Of a DNA stretch of 64,000 nucleotides, positions 6,940-10,431 are shown in pieces. The first letter of the stretch is position 1. Every line of letters begins with the position of its first letter. The DNA is from Anaerosomatales bacterium. Its GTDB lineage: Bacteria; Actinomycetota; Coriobacteriia; Anaerosomatales; Anaerosomataceae. A model generated the notes under the pieces. That model did no database searches. It worked only from the letters and a program-made list of their open reading frames with translations, and was not told the DNA's origin. Location of the stretch: the NCBI GenBank assembly GCA_030019445.1, contig JASEEU010000001.1, positions 186,001 through 250,000 on the forward strand. The letters run 5' to 3'. The position numbers were made by a program, and so were the translations under genes.

Positions 6940-7305
6940 ATGCCGCTCGTCAGCCGCGACGGGTCGGCCTTCGCATGGCGGGTTGCGGCGTTCTGGGCGT
7001 CGACGTGGGCGCTTGGTGCCGCCATCGGCGCGGCGATCGGCGGATACCTCACGCTCGTGAGCGGCTCGGGTGCGCCGGGCACCCAGGACCTTGACCCGCT
7101 CATGGACCTGGTGGCGCTACCGCTCGCCGCGTTCGCAGTGGTCTTCCTCGTGCACCTGTGCATCCAGGTCGTTGCTGCCATCATCCGGGGACGCCGTGCG
7201 GGAGCGGAACACGACGGCGATACCGACGACCAGCAACCACAGGGCGGCGACGACGGCATCGGCGGGGAGGTCGGGAGCGAGGCTTCCACGGGCCAGTCCC
7301 CGTAG
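6940..7305 (+). CDS. Small membrane protein of unknown function, end of transporter operon
   Basis: I do not recognise this 121-aa product. It starts at ATG 6940, two bases after the permease stop, so it is probably co-transcribed. Two hydrophobic segments (about residues 12-39 and 57-82) form a likely membrane hairpin. The last 35 residues are acidic, Gly/Gln/Asp-rich and low complexity. The tail-coding part (7117-7305) overlaps a minus-strand ORF. Third codon positions are GC-rich throughout, which supports coding but does not exclude an artefact in the tail. Confidence 0.55.
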   Translation: MPLVSRDGSAFAWRVAAFWASTWALGAAIGAAIGGYLTLVSGSGAPGTQDLDPLMDLVALPLAAFAVVFLVHLCIQVVAAIIRGRRAGAEHDGDTDDQQPQGGDDGIGGEVGSEASTGQSP

Positions 7306-7371
7306 CCCGTAGGCGGCGATCGGTACCCCGATCGCCGCCCAGAGCGGCATCTTCACCTGCGGACGGAGCAC
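7117..7371 (-). CDS. Small membrane ORF downstream of DUF4349 gene, antisense overlap
   Basis: Reads from GTG 7371 (one base after the DUF4349 stop) or from ATG 7350 to a stop at 7117. The first 55 residues look like a real membrane protein, with hydrophobic stretches at about 9-22 and 38-55 (WLLVVGIAVVF) and GC-rich third positions. The remaining 30 residues lie antisense to the tail of the + strand gene and look random. It may be a short third gene of the minus-strand unit. Function unknown; it could be spurious. Confidence 0.4.
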   Translation of the reverse strand: MLRPQVKMPLWAAIGVPIAAYGLRGLARGSLAPDLPADAVVAALWLLVVGIAVVFRSRTASPDDGSNDLDAQVHEEDHCERGER

Positions 7372-7372
7372 G

Positions 7373-8362
7373 TCAGGCGTCGTGCGAAGCGGTATCAGCC
7401 GATGCGGTGCGGCGCCGCTTCGACCGGGCGCGGACGATCGCGCGGATGATGAAGAACAGCGCGATCGCGAGCACGAACAACGGTGAGACGGCGATCAGGA
7501 ACGTGATGAGGACCTTGATGACGCCCGCCGCGCCCCGGAATCCCGTGGTGATCGCGTCAGCGAAACCCCAGTCGGTCCCCGAGGGCCGCACGATCGGCTT
7601 CGGCTCGCTCAACTCGATGGTCACGGTCGCCATCGCGGCCTGGCGTTCGAGGTAGCTCACCTGCGCGTCGAGGCTCTCGATCTCTCCGCGGACGCGGGAG
7701 AGCTCGCGTTCGATCGCGAGCATGTCCTCGACCTTGTCGGCCGCGTCGAAGAACTCGCGCAGCCGCTGCTCCTCGACACGGAGGTTCTCGAGCCGCGCCG
7801 AGAGATCCACGTGCTGCTGCGTGACGTCATCGCTCGTCTCGGCCTGGAACAGCACCTTGCCGACGCCAGACGCGTCGTTCACGAACGCGTTGAAGTCCGC
7901 GACCGGCACGCGCACCGTGACGTATCCCACGAGAGGACCCGAGTCCGTGTACGTCGCCTCGTCATAGCGATAGATGGGGCTTTCGGAGTCGTTCGCCACC
8001 TGAAGGGCGGTCACGACCGCCCCGTGCTTCTCGACGAGCGCCTGGATGTCATCGATCGCGTCGCGGACGGCATCCACCTCGAGGCGGAGCGTCTTGGTGC
8101 GGACGATCAGGCGATCCTCGGGCGGGAGGTCGCTCACATCTCCCGTCGCGGGCTCGGTGACCACGTCGGGCGCAAGCGCTTCATCCGTGGCGGCGCGCTC
8201 GGCGACGCCCGGCGCCCCGCCGTACTCCTCGCTGTTGGCCGTCTGGCCGTCGAGCCCGAGATCCGCCTCGAGCGTCGAGCAGCCTGCCAGCACGAGCAGC
8301 GCGAGCGCGAGCGTCGCGGCGATCGCTCGCGCCAGGGGTCGTGCACTCCGTCTGTCCCACAT
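7373..8362 (-). CDS. DUF4349 lipoprotein
   Basis: Membrane-anchored lipoprotein with the DUF4349 domain, function unknown. The ATG at 8362 has a strong GAGGAGG site five bases upstream and gives 329 aa; longer in-frame starts lack a site. Residues 1-28 are a lipoprotein signal with LVLAGC. The conserved domain follows: a VRTKTLRLEVDAV start, the VTVRVPVADFNAFV segment, then DVTQQHVDLSARLENLR leading into a coiled coil (EDMLAIERELSRVRGEIE) and a VTIEL end. A C-terminal transmembrane helix (AVSPLFVLAIALFFIIRAI) precedes an Arg/Lys-rich tail. Such proteins span the envelope space with both ends at the membrane. It lies downstream of the 54-aa gene in the unit divergent from mraZ. Confidence 0.85.
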   Translation of the reverse strand: MWDRRSARPLARAIAATLALALLVLAGCSTLEADLGLDGQTANSEEYGGAPGVAERAATDEALAPDVVTEPATGDVSDLPPEDRLIVRTKTLRLEVDAVRDAIDDIQALVEKHGAVVTALQVANDSESPIYRYDEATYTDSGPLVGYVTVRVPVADFNAFVNDASGVGKVLFQAETSDDVTQQHVDLSARLENLRVEEQRLREFFDAADKVEDMLAIERELSRVRGEIESLDAQVSYLERQAAMATVTIELSEPKPIVRPSGTDWGFADAITTGFRGAAGVIKVLITFLIAVSPLFVLAIALFFIIRAIVRARSKRRRTASADTASHDA

Positions 8363-8470
8363 GGTGACCTCCTCACCGGCGTCGGTCCGGAAACGGAGCG
8401 GACGCCCCATGACCGCCTGTCCGACAGGCGGCGGGACGTCCGGATCACGCATCGAGCGGAGTCGTGATGC

Positions 8471-8635
8471 CTATTCCTCCTCGGCTACGGCCTCTTCCCG
8501 CTTCTTGAGCTGCTTGGCAGCGTACACGAGGAAACCGATACCGATGGCGACCACGGCAAAGAAGGCGACGGTAAGCATGTTGAACACGATGGCCGCAACG
8601 TTGTAACCGAGTGGTGCGAATCCCATGGGGGTCAT
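8471..8635 (-). CDS. 54-aa single-pass membrane peptide divergent from mraZ
   Basis: A short gene read from ATG 8635 (or ATG 8626, fourth codon) to TAG at 8471. It has a GGAGGTGA site directly upstream, one hydrophobic helix (about residues 12-40, including FFAVVAIGIGFLVYAA) and a charged tail (KQLKKREEAVAEEE). The site is very close to the first ATG and a little far from the second, so the start is uncertain. A good minus-strand promoter sits about 30 bases upstream. No family recognised. The Shine-Dalgarno, promoter and clean helix-plus-charged-tail make-up argue that it is a real small protein. Confidence 0.65.
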   Translation of the reverse strand: MTPMGFAPLGYNVAAIVFNMLTVAFFAVVAIGIGFLVYAAKQLKKREEAVAEEE

Positions 8636-8666
8636 TCACCTCCATCGCGCCCGCAGGTACTCCTGG

Positions 8667-8696
8667 ATTCTACCGTTCCGGGGAGGCGCCCGGCAA
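8667..8696 (-). promoter_or_regulatory. Minus-strand promoter of the 54-aa/DUF4349 unit
   Basis: On the minus strand, TTGCCG (8696-8691) and TAGAAT (8672-8667) are separated by 18 bases, and the start codon of the 54-aa gene lies about 30 bases further. It faces away from the mraZ promoter, leaving roughly 240 bases between the two promoters. Confidence 0.5.
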
Positions 8697-8881
8697 CCGC
8701 TGTTCGCCCCCATCACCTTCTATTCCGCTGTGAACGTCCGATTCCTGCCTGTCACACCGTAAGACGCGTGCGGCAGCATCACGGTTCACGCGGTGGCCGA
8801 GAAAGACATCATCTCGACCGCCATCAGCAGGCTCGTGCGGCCGATGCGGGGGAGCGGGCGCGGCGCCCTTGGGGGGGCGGC

Positions 8882-8958
8882 GTGGGCCGTCGTGTCGGTG
8901 TCGTGGGCTATGGTGGGGCGTTTGTGCAATGAGGTGTTGCATTGTGGGATGAAGTGGC
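8882..8958 (+). promoter_or_regulatory. MraZ-box repeats (GTGGG, 10-bp period)
   Basis: GTGGG-type pentamers occur at 8882, 8892 (degenerate, GTGTC), 8903, 8913, 8944 and 8954 (GTGGC). The pairs 8882/8892, 8903/8913 and 8944/8954 are each spaced by 10 bases. MraZ is known to bind TGGGN repeats separated by five bases upstream of its own gene. The last pair lies between the -35 and -10 of the mraZ promoter, a position suited to autorepression. Confidence 0.6.
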
Positions 8959-8965
8959 ATAGAGT
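8937..8965 (+). promoter_or_regulatory. mraZ / dcw operon promoter
   Basis: TTGCAT (8937-8942), a 17-base spacer, then TAGAGT (8960-8965), about 60 bases upstream of the mraZ ATG. The spacer contains two MraZ-like boxes. The remainder of the 380-base gap between the minus-strand gene and mraZ holds no further gene that I can support. Confidence 0.5.
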
Positions 8966-9026
8966 TGAGCCTGATGGGGCCGACGGGGCCGCACAGGTGT
9001 CACCCGGAGGAGCAGGGAGGGACGGG

Positions 9027-9461
9027 ATGTTTCTCGGCGAACACCAGCACACGCTGGACGCCAAGGGGCGCTTGTCGCTGCCCGCAAAGTTCCGGGCGCA
9101 GATGACCGGCAGCCTGGTCGTCTCCAAGGGCCTCGAAGGGTGCCTCTACGTGCATTCCGCCGAGGAGTACTCGCAGTTCTTCAGTCAGCTCACGGAGCGG
9201 GGGGACTTCGATCCCAAGTTCCGCAAGGCGCGCCGCTTCTTCTCATCGGGCGCCGTTGAGACGGAGCTCGACTCGGCGGGACGCATCTCGATCTCAGCGC
9301 ATCTCCGGGAGTACGCAGGGCTCGATAAGGACGTCGCGGTCATCGGCAACGGCGACCGGATCGAGCTGTGGGATTCCGAGCGATGGGCCGCCTACAACGG
9401 AGAGACGGCCGAGCAGATCGAAGACGTGACGAAAGAACTTGCCGAACTCGGCATTCTGTAG
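9027..9461 (+). CDS. mraZ: Transcriptional regulator MraZ
   Basis: DNA-binding regulator of the dcw cluster, 144 aa. Two AbrB-like half-domains each contain the conserved D-x-x-x-R element: DAKGRLSLP near residue 12 and DSAGRISIS near residue 90. The ATG at 9027 is preceded by GGGAGG at the right distance and gives the typical MFLGEHQHTLD start; in-frame codons further upstream would include the promoter. It forms a ring-shaped oligomer in known cases and binds the repeats just upstream. It is followed after 10 bases by rsmH. Confidence 0.95.
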   Translation: MFLGEHQHTLDAKGRLSLPAKFRAQMTGSLVVSKGLEGCLYVHSAEEYSQFFSQLTERGDFDPKFRKARRFFSSGAVETELDSAGRISISAHLREYAGLDKDVAVIGNGDRIELWDSERWAAYNGETAEQIEDVTKELAELGIL

Positions 9462-9471
9462 GGCCTTGAAA

Positions 9472-10431
9472 ATGGCATACCGGCACACCCCAGTTTTGCT
9501 GGCCGAGGTCACGCAGTACCTATCGCCGCACGACGGGTCGATCATCGTCGACTGTACCTTAGGCGGGGCAGGACACGCTCGGCGGTTCGCCGAGCTTATC
9601 GCACCCACAGGGATCCTCGTGGGAATCGATCAAGATGACGCCGCACTCGCTGCAGCATCAGACGCACTCCGCCTCGGCCAGCAAGCCCGTGAGGGAGCGG
9701 CACCGCACACGGTGCTGCTCAAGGGGAACTTCGCCGATCTCGACGAGTTGCTCGCCGAGGCCGGCATCCCGTACGCCGACGGGATCCTGATGGACCTCGG
9801 CGTCTCCTCACCCCAATTGGACGTACGCGGCCGCGGTTTCTCATACCAGGAGGACGCGCCGCTCGACATGCGCATGGACCCCTCGTCATCGCAGCCGACC
9901 GCGGCCGACGTCGTCAACACCTACAGCGAACCGGACCTCGCACGGGTCCTTCGTGAGTACGGTGAGGAACGGTGGGCCTCGCGCATCGCAGCATTCATCG
10001 TAGCCGCGCGGGGCCACCATCCGGTGACGACCACGGGCGAGCTCGTGGAGATCGTCAAGGCGGCGATCCCCGCCTCAGCCCGGCGCTCGGGAGGACACCC
10101 GGCACGCAGGACGTTCCAGGCCCTGCGCATCGAGGTCAACCGTGAGTTGGAGGCGCTTGAGCGCGGCCTCGAGGCGGCGGTCCGCTGGCTCGGTCCAGGA
10201 GGGAGGCTGGCAGTGATCAGCTATCACTCTCTTGAGGACCGCATCACGAAGAATCTGTTCACCGGCCTCGCCACGGGGTGCACATGTCCGCCCGACCTGC
10301 CGGTGTGCAGATGCGGGCGCGTGCCGGTAGTCCGGGTCATCACGCGCAGACCCGTGGCGCCTGCCACGGAGGAGATCGAACGGAACCCGCGGGCGCGAAG
10401 CGCCAAGCTGCGGGTCGTGGAGAAGGTCTGA
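9472..10431 (+). CDS. rsmH: 16S rRNA (cytosine(1402)-N4)-methyltransferase RsmH
   Basis: SAM-dependent methyltransferase acting on C1402 of 16S rRNA (formerly MraW), 319 aa. The N-terminus HTPVLLAEV, SAM-binding VDCTLGGAGH, GIDQD, the MDLGVSSPQLD segment and the C-terminal ISYHSLEDR are all present, as is the Cys-containing TCPPDLPVCRCG region. ATG 9472 follows mraZ closely without a strong ribosome site, suggesting coupling. Confidence 0.95.
   Translation: MAYRHTPVLLAEVTQYLSPHDGSIIVDCTLGGAGHARRFAELIAPTGILVGIDQDDAALAAASDALRLGQQAREGAAPHTVLLKGNFADLDELLAEAGIPYADGILMDLGVSSPQLDVRGRGFSYQEDAPLDMRMDPSSSQPTAADVVNTYSEPDLARVLREYGEERWASRIAAFIVAARGHHPVTTTGELVEIVKAAIPASARRSGGHPARRTFQALRIEVNRELEALERGLEAAVRWLGPGGRLAVISYHSLEDRITKNLFTGLATGCTCPPDLPVCRCGRVPVVRVITRRPVAPATEEIERNPRARSAKLRVVEKV

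Follow-up and report, generated by a model that had tools for sequence, protein, structure and literature searches.

In a 64,000-nucleotide stretch of an Anaerosomatales genome (the window), a short membrane-protein gene, here called smp, and a DUF4349 lipoprotein gene lie back to back with mraZ. This arrangement raises the question of what controls smp and its lipoprotein neighbour. The first-pass annotation had suggested MraZ, whose boxes lie between the two divergent promoters; MraZ could affect both sides and so link an envelope lipoprotein to division. The genes of the locus and the signals belonging to smp and DUF4349 are the following.

7117-7371, minus strand: hydrophobic ORF of 84 aa that immediately follows DUF4349 (tblastn).
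7373-8362, minus strand: DUF4349 lipoprotein gene with lipobox LAGC and a C-terminal membrane helix (start from its Shine-Dalgarno sequence).
8400-8441, minus strand: GC-rich hairpin between smp and DUF4349 (conserved arm-sequence pattern).
8471-8626, minus strand: smp, single-helix membrane protein gene, 51 aa (ORF and start position in relatives).
8636-8643, minus strand: Shine-Dalgarno sequence GGAGGTGA of smp, nearly invariant among relatives.
9027-9461, plus strand: mraZ, which opens the dcw cluster and reads away from smp (TIGR00242); rsmH lies downstream on the same strand.

The ORF scan of the window returned the expected minus-strand frame of 54 codons at 8471-8635, although its proposed 54-aa start proved the less likely one. 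The ATG at 8635 directly abuts GGAGGTGA, and in relatives the start codon stands about 9 nt past this sequence; because of that position in relatives, smp is likely to start at ATG 8626 (51 aa) rather than at 8635 (54 aa). Across the order, smp starts were set by a Shine-Dalgarno rule, except at one locus (L028), where the start was placed by hand. An AlphaFold2 model of the protein consists of one helix spanning residues 6-50 (mean pLDDT 83.9), and by the positive-inside rule its charged C-terminal tail would face the cytoplasm. Searches with smp gave no match in Pfam and two in NCBIfam, both far below cut-off. The three codon positions of the gene differ (0.315/0.250/0.438), and the median dN/dS was 0.41 over 387 pairs from 30 loci, a weak figure as many pairs are near saturation. 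A chance ORF was ruled out by the conserved protein, its Shine-Dalgarno sequence and its context.

Conservation in related genomes had been named as a test of the peptide, and it proved to be order-wide. Used as a single query, the smp peptide matched 54 of 61 genomes (the window genome and 60 relatives); a profile search was positive in 61 of 69 same-family or same-order genomes, counting the window genome, these 69 being part of a 197-genome sample of the class. All 61 order loci were inspected. The gene reads away from mraZ in 59 of them, as the first reading of the window had it, and DUF4349 follows smp on the same strand in 58 of these 59 divergent loci, the contig ending in the remaining one (L117). 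In one of the other two loci (L119, genome G031), DUF4349 sits between mraZ and smp (mraZ <- -> DUF4349 -> smp), a swapped order from which it follows that smp and DUF4349 stay together after rearrangement; in the other (L132, genome G127), the contig ends before mraZ. These two were dropped, leaving 59 intergenic regions for analysis. Among the eight order genomes without an smp match, mraZ also went unmatched in five and was hit only in part in a sixth (G020). Another (G036, locus L112) carries smp-type promoter elements and a Shine-Dalgarno sequence, seen by eye, as far as the point where its contig ends, and in the last (G040, locus L111; 99% complete) a different gene occupies the place of smp, which looks like a real loss.

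The gene after smp encodes a DUF4349 protein, as previously read from the sequence (PF14257; E 1.1e-55, 188.7 bits against a gathering cut-off of 27.7), and most likely starts at 8362 (GAGGAGGTCACC-ATG; 329 aa). In its structure model (mean pLDDT 74.3), a helix at the N-terminus precedes the lipobox region; the model also has a mixed domain containing a long helical hairpin, and a C-terminal helix. Foldseek against the PDB gave nothing at E <=0.001, with weak hairpin-type hits that included MacA chains, and phmmer against the PDB gave a single match at E 0.66; a known fold was rejected for want of a confident structural match.

Between the two genes, the arm-sequence pattern of the hairpin occurred in 58 of the 60 regions taken downstream of the smp stop codon, compared with 0-8 of 60 in 20 shuffles. 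A stem of at least 11 was found in 39 of these 60 regions, compared with 2-4 in three shuffles, and at least four T residues lay within ten bases past the best stem in 30 of them. The hairpin may act as a partial terminator favouring smp. Directly after DUF4349, the 84-aa ORF had tblastn hits in 23 of 30 loci, its own included, and weakly resembles DUF6779, below cut-off; it is possibly a third gene of the smp-DUF4349 unit.

Alignment of 30 intergenic regions, followed by pattern tests on all 59 (306-439 bp), resolved separate islands between smp and mraZ that are conserved at fixed spacing.

8667-8696, minus strand: proximal sigma-70-like smp promoter, TTGCC-N19-TAGAAT (promoter scan and pattern in 59 loci).
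8722-8753, no strand assigned: direct-repeat block ATTCCgCTGTnA...ATTCCTGCCTGTC between the two smp promoters (alignment and pattern).
8760-8787, minus strand: distal ECF-type smp promoter, GAACC-N16-CGTCTTA (motif conserved across 59 loci).
8934-8961, plus strand: core of the MraZ-box array at the mraZ end (alignment; repeat register about 8913-8965 by eye).

The promoter-like element nearest to smp bears out, together with GGAGGTGA at 8636-8643, the proposal that the peptide has its own promoter and Shine-Dalgarno sequence: the scan found TTGCCG-N18-TAGAAT at 8696-8667 on the minus strand, one occurrence against a shuffle mean of 0.3, and GTTGCC-N16..19-TAGAATC, with one mismatch allowed per box, recurred in 57 of 59 loci. 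Farther upstream, 51 of the 59 loci have an exact GAACC-N16-CGTC on the smp strand, and two more have it with a spacing of 17; 200 dinucleotide shuffles gave a mean of 0.105 and a maximum of 1 of 59 for the exact form. The two boxes at the 16-nt spacing were found on the opposite strand in none of the 59 regions. The shorter form GAAC-N17-CGTC lies upstream of smp, on the coding strand, in 56 of 59 loci. In these 56 regions, both boxes and their next bases are informative and the spacer columns hardly so, a pattern that reads as a two-box promoter signature. Judged by its sequence, the putative promoter GAACC-N16-CGTCTTA has the architecture recognized by ECF sigma factors. Three divergent loci from outside the order lacked the ECF-type motif.

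The direct-repeat block between the two promoter-like elements consists of ATTCC-n-CTGTnA repeated about 19 nt apart. It was detected by the pattern used in 32 of 59 loci and, with the pattern tried, only once in its own genome, at 8722-8753. An RNA element in the smp leader was also considered and set aside, there being no Rfam match up to E 1 within 7000-10000.

MraZ boxes do lie in the shared region, as had been claimed, but they are sited at its mraZ end. The array GTGTTGCAaaGTGGGATgaaGTGgcATA, with up to 2, 2 and 1 mismatches allowed in its three units, was present in 57 of the 59 regions; in each of them it sits at the mraZ end, with 57-92 bp left to the start of mraZ. In the window, its repeats overlie a promoter-like pair on the mraZ side (TTGCAT at 8937-8942 and TAGAGT at 8960-8965, seen by eye and missed by the promoter scan). 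From the array core it is 147 bp to the closer of the smp-side promoter elements and 238 bp to the sigma-70-like one; across the order, the median distances are 87 bp to the ECF-type promoter (54-146, n=54) and 191 bp to the sigma-70-like promoter (148-253, n=57). An exact GTG-x3 period-10 array was found on the smp strand in none of the 59 regions.

The distal motif recurs in front of an ECF sigma gene. Sigma region 4 (PF08281) matched at eight loci of the window genome, and an exact GAACC-N16-CGTC was found at only one of them, L134, where it stands directly before the gene. This gene lies about 80 kb from smp on the same contig and encodes a 182-aa protein with sigma region 2 and region 4 domains, whose best NCBIfam match was PRK09643 (SigM; 129 bits, below the SigM cut-off of 190). 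Orthologues (E <=1.5e-54) were present in 56 of 61 relatives; we read 30 orthologue loci out of these 56 genomes, and in all 30 the motif stands 13-29 nt ahead of the extrapolated start (29 with GAACC, 1 with GAACT), compared with a mean of 0.27 and a maximum of 2 in shuffled 180-nt stretches of the same loci. An ORF overlapping the end of the L134 gene contains an HCRSCDAC motif, a candidate for the zinc-binding H-x3-C-x2-C type, and one hydrophobic stretch, both seen by eye. This anti-sigma candidate had no Pfam match and a weak NCBIfam anti-sigma match (E 0.0019), and has a tblastn relative at 29 of the 30 orthologue loci. None of 20 other genomes of the class, 12 of them smp-positive, yielded an L134 orthologue (best E 6.9e-17, 32%).

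To characterize what else the motif precedes, we searched 15 order genomes for GAACC-N16-CGTC-NNA, which gave 138 sites compared with 29 for the reversed control. Ninety-four sites were read; the other 44 comprised 16 known sigma or smp sites and 28 left out for last three bases (GCA, GGA, CGA, CCA or ACA) that seemed less promoter-like, although some sites with such endings, for example L263 and L264, were read nonetheless. The first ORF was lipoprotein-like at 26 of the 94 sites, compared with 95 of 4000 positions drawn at random from these loci, a share that reflects the chosen subset because sites with the less promoter-like endings were mostly left out. The remaining 68 sites had no lipoprotein-like ORF downstream; about ten of them are sigma or smp sites, and many of the others are probably chance occurrences.

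Genes downstream of the motif clustered across genomes into the sigma gene, smp and five lipoprotein families. The largest lipoprotein cluster, at nine loci in nine genomes, has no Pfam match and a consensus resembling YDLEDGTVQAIGTLEYRDLEGGFWAI. The others were labelled I42 chagasin-like (5), SIMPL (5), META (3) and DUF3221-like (6), each Pfam label resting on one representative. Two more clusters (L227/L241 and L230/L237) are non-lipoprotein and confined to the sister genomes G007 and G015. At some smp sites the clustering, which took the longest downstream ORF, picked the wrong frame. The window genome itself has six strict sites, which precede the ECF gene, smp, a citrate-synthase-like ORF and, in three cases, no obvious target; none of the six precedes a gene of the motif-linked lipoprotein clusters. 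The citrate-synthase-like ORF (locus L089; named by eye) lies outside any cross-genome cluster, and the site 25 nt before it (1501-1528 of that locus, plus strand) is a second exact GAACC-N16-CGTCTTA in this genome.

We consider it probable that smp and DUF4349 belong to an autoregulated ECF-sigma envelope-stress regulon read by the L134 sigma factor. In this model, smp and DUF4349, possibly with the 84-aa ORF, would form an envelope-stress transcription unit that adjoins the dcw cluster and points away from it. The sigma-70-like promoter at 8667-8696 would give basal expression, whereas stress expression would start from GAACC-N16-CGTCTTA (8760-8787), used by RNA polymerase together with the L134 sigma factor. 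This sigma factor would be restrained by the membrane zinc-motif anti-sigma candidate encoded directly after it; upon release, it would transcribe its own operon, smp-DUF4349 and a set of small envelope lipoproteins. The hairpin after smp probably curbs read-through, which would leave smp in excess over the lipoprotein, and MraZ would act on its own promoter only. The genes, both promoter-like elements, the shared motif at the sigma gene and its recurrence before lipoprotein genes in relatives are seen directly in the sequences; that L134 reads the smp motif and that the signal is envelope stress is inferred. The two products of the unit would work together at the membrane, although the hairpin may largely uncouple DUF4349 from smp.

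A broader survey showed that smp extends beyond the order. With a wider profile, it was found at E 1e-24 to 1e-34 in 12 class genomes from three other families (f17, f20 and f21), in versions with a longer K/A-rich tail. Two further genomes of these families (G079 and G081) gave no match with this profile, and families f18, f19 and f22 gave weak fragments only. In a sample of 296 genomes of the phylum, no credible member was found outside the order; four order genomes aside, nine weak matches lay inside longer frames (one of 146 codons, eight of more than 300). We read ten loci from the 12 smp-positive genomes outside the order. In all ten, smp adjoins mraZ, at 181-502 bp in the nine that were measured (L100 was read by eye), and tblastn detected no DUF4349 in these ten stretches. 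The gene is divergent from mraZ in L092, L093 and L095, and lies upstream of mraZ on the same strand in the others, several of which show hairpins with T-runs between smp and mraZ (by eye). A sigma-70-like promoter of similar form stands before smp again in L093 and L095. In these two loci the intergenic region is just about 210-230 bp, and MraZ-like repeats, seen by eye, lie near the smp promoter, so that MraZ could more plausibly influence smp in these lineages than it could in the window.

Because sister lineages keep smp beside mraZ with DUF4349 undetected, the smp-mraZ link appears wider, and is probably older, than the smp-DUF4349 link. The proposed connection to the division cluster thus survives in looser form: a lipoprotein tied to division through MraZ finds no support, whereas smp itself keeps its place by mraZ in the loci read from several class lineages and is therefore a candidate division- or wall-linked factor. 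As smp is probably older than DUF4349 in this position, its main role may lie elsewhere.

The alternative that follows most directly is that smp is primarily a partner of the division and wall cluster, dcw-linked throughout the class, with the ECF promoter and DUF4349 added later in Anaerosomatales. The 12 genomes outside the order, the ten loci beside mraZ and the recurring sigma-70-like promoter fit this reading, but they speak through neighbourhood, and in that neighbourhood the two genes differ in orientation and spacing from locus to locus and are separated, in several co-directional loci, by hairpins with T-runs. Moreover, smp gave no hit in G040 or in G079 and G081, and weak fragments only in three families. 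We regard this alternative as possible but unlikely.

It is more doubtful still that the GAACC-N16-CGTC motif before smp is real but read by another ECF sigma factor of the same genome, or by several. ECF motifs overlap, L135 and L136 are additional ECF-like genes of the window genome, and the Streptomyces sigma-E targets that were tested are mostly only partly sigma-E dependent, according to the available sections of PMC6767563. However, L135 and L136 lack the exact motif at spacing 16, all 30 L134-type loci read have it, and the L134-type sigma factor and the smp motif share a distribution, each occurring within the order and each going undetected in the outgroups tested. Joint control by MraZ, repressing or coupling mraZ and smp-DUF4349 from between the divergent promoters and so joining the lipoprotein to division control, is very unlikely despite the repeats in 57 of 59 shared regions and those near the smp promoter in L093 and L095, and MraZ as a common regulator was rejected for the smp side on the position of the array, which within the order lies at the mraZ end only and at the distances given above, and smp has conserved promoter elements of its own, with the ECF motif pointing to a specific candidate regulator.

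A more speculative reading, which we think improbable, extends the ECF-regulon model: smp could be the founder of a class-specific group of division-cluster microproteins that sense or modulate the growing envelope, serving in Anaerosomatales as output of, or feedback input to, the ECF-sigma/anti-sigma circuit. If true, envelope stress and division would be coordinated from one divergent regulatory region. The ECF-regulon model itself offers a testable regulator and regulon for smp, which is uncharacterised and order-wide, and for its DUF4349 lipoprotein, and it shifts the question from MraZ toward envelope stress. The first cultivated isolates of Anaerosomatales (OPB41) were described in 2022 (PMC9686372, as available in part). 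Literature searches on DUF4349, MraZ and the ECF motif found no publication on the smp-DUF4349 unit.

Each side of the locus resembles systems already described. The mraZ side matches the MraZ-controlled mraZ promoter of the dcw cluster, for which the available text of PMC8475190 and PMC7761207 gives 7-nt repeats with a GTG core and 3-nt spacers: the repeats have the same form and lie in the mraZ promoter region. Unlike at that promoter, the smp promoters fall outside the array. DUF4349 proteins include a candidate tail-anchored lipoprotein of Methylobacterium (PMC10924467, partial text), which shares with the protein studied here a lipobox, the DUF4349 domain and a C-terminal membrane helix; what differs is that, in this order, an ECF-type promoter and a gene for a small membrane protein come before DUF4349. 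The L134 locus is similar to SigM-like operons of an ECF sigma factor with a ZAS-type anti-sigma factor in its region 2 and region 4 domains, the adjacent anti-sigma candidate and the motif at its own promoter, and differs from them in a score below the SigM cut-off and an anti-sigma match that is only weak.

The closest parallel to the proposed regulon is that of sigma-E in Streptomyces coelicolor, as far as the accessible portions of PMC6767563 and PMC10771440 describe it; neither paper contains the term DUF4349. That regulon is likewise served by an ECF sigma factor, with GAAC(C) at -35 and CGTC at -10, 16-17 nt apart, and promoters of this form include that of sco4134, a putative lipoprotein gene (PMC6767563). 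Exported proteins and lipoproteins are over-represented at Streptomyces sigma-E binding sites (PMC10771440), and some targets have more than one promoter, as smp appears to have. In S. coelicolor, the CseBC two-component system switches on sigE, whose own promoter is not a sigma-E target, according to the same partial sources, whereas the L134 sigma gene carries its own motif and is accompanied by a zinc-motif anti-sigma candidate. The circuit outlined here would be of a known type among ECF systems, to which the smp family, which has no library entry, would be the added element.
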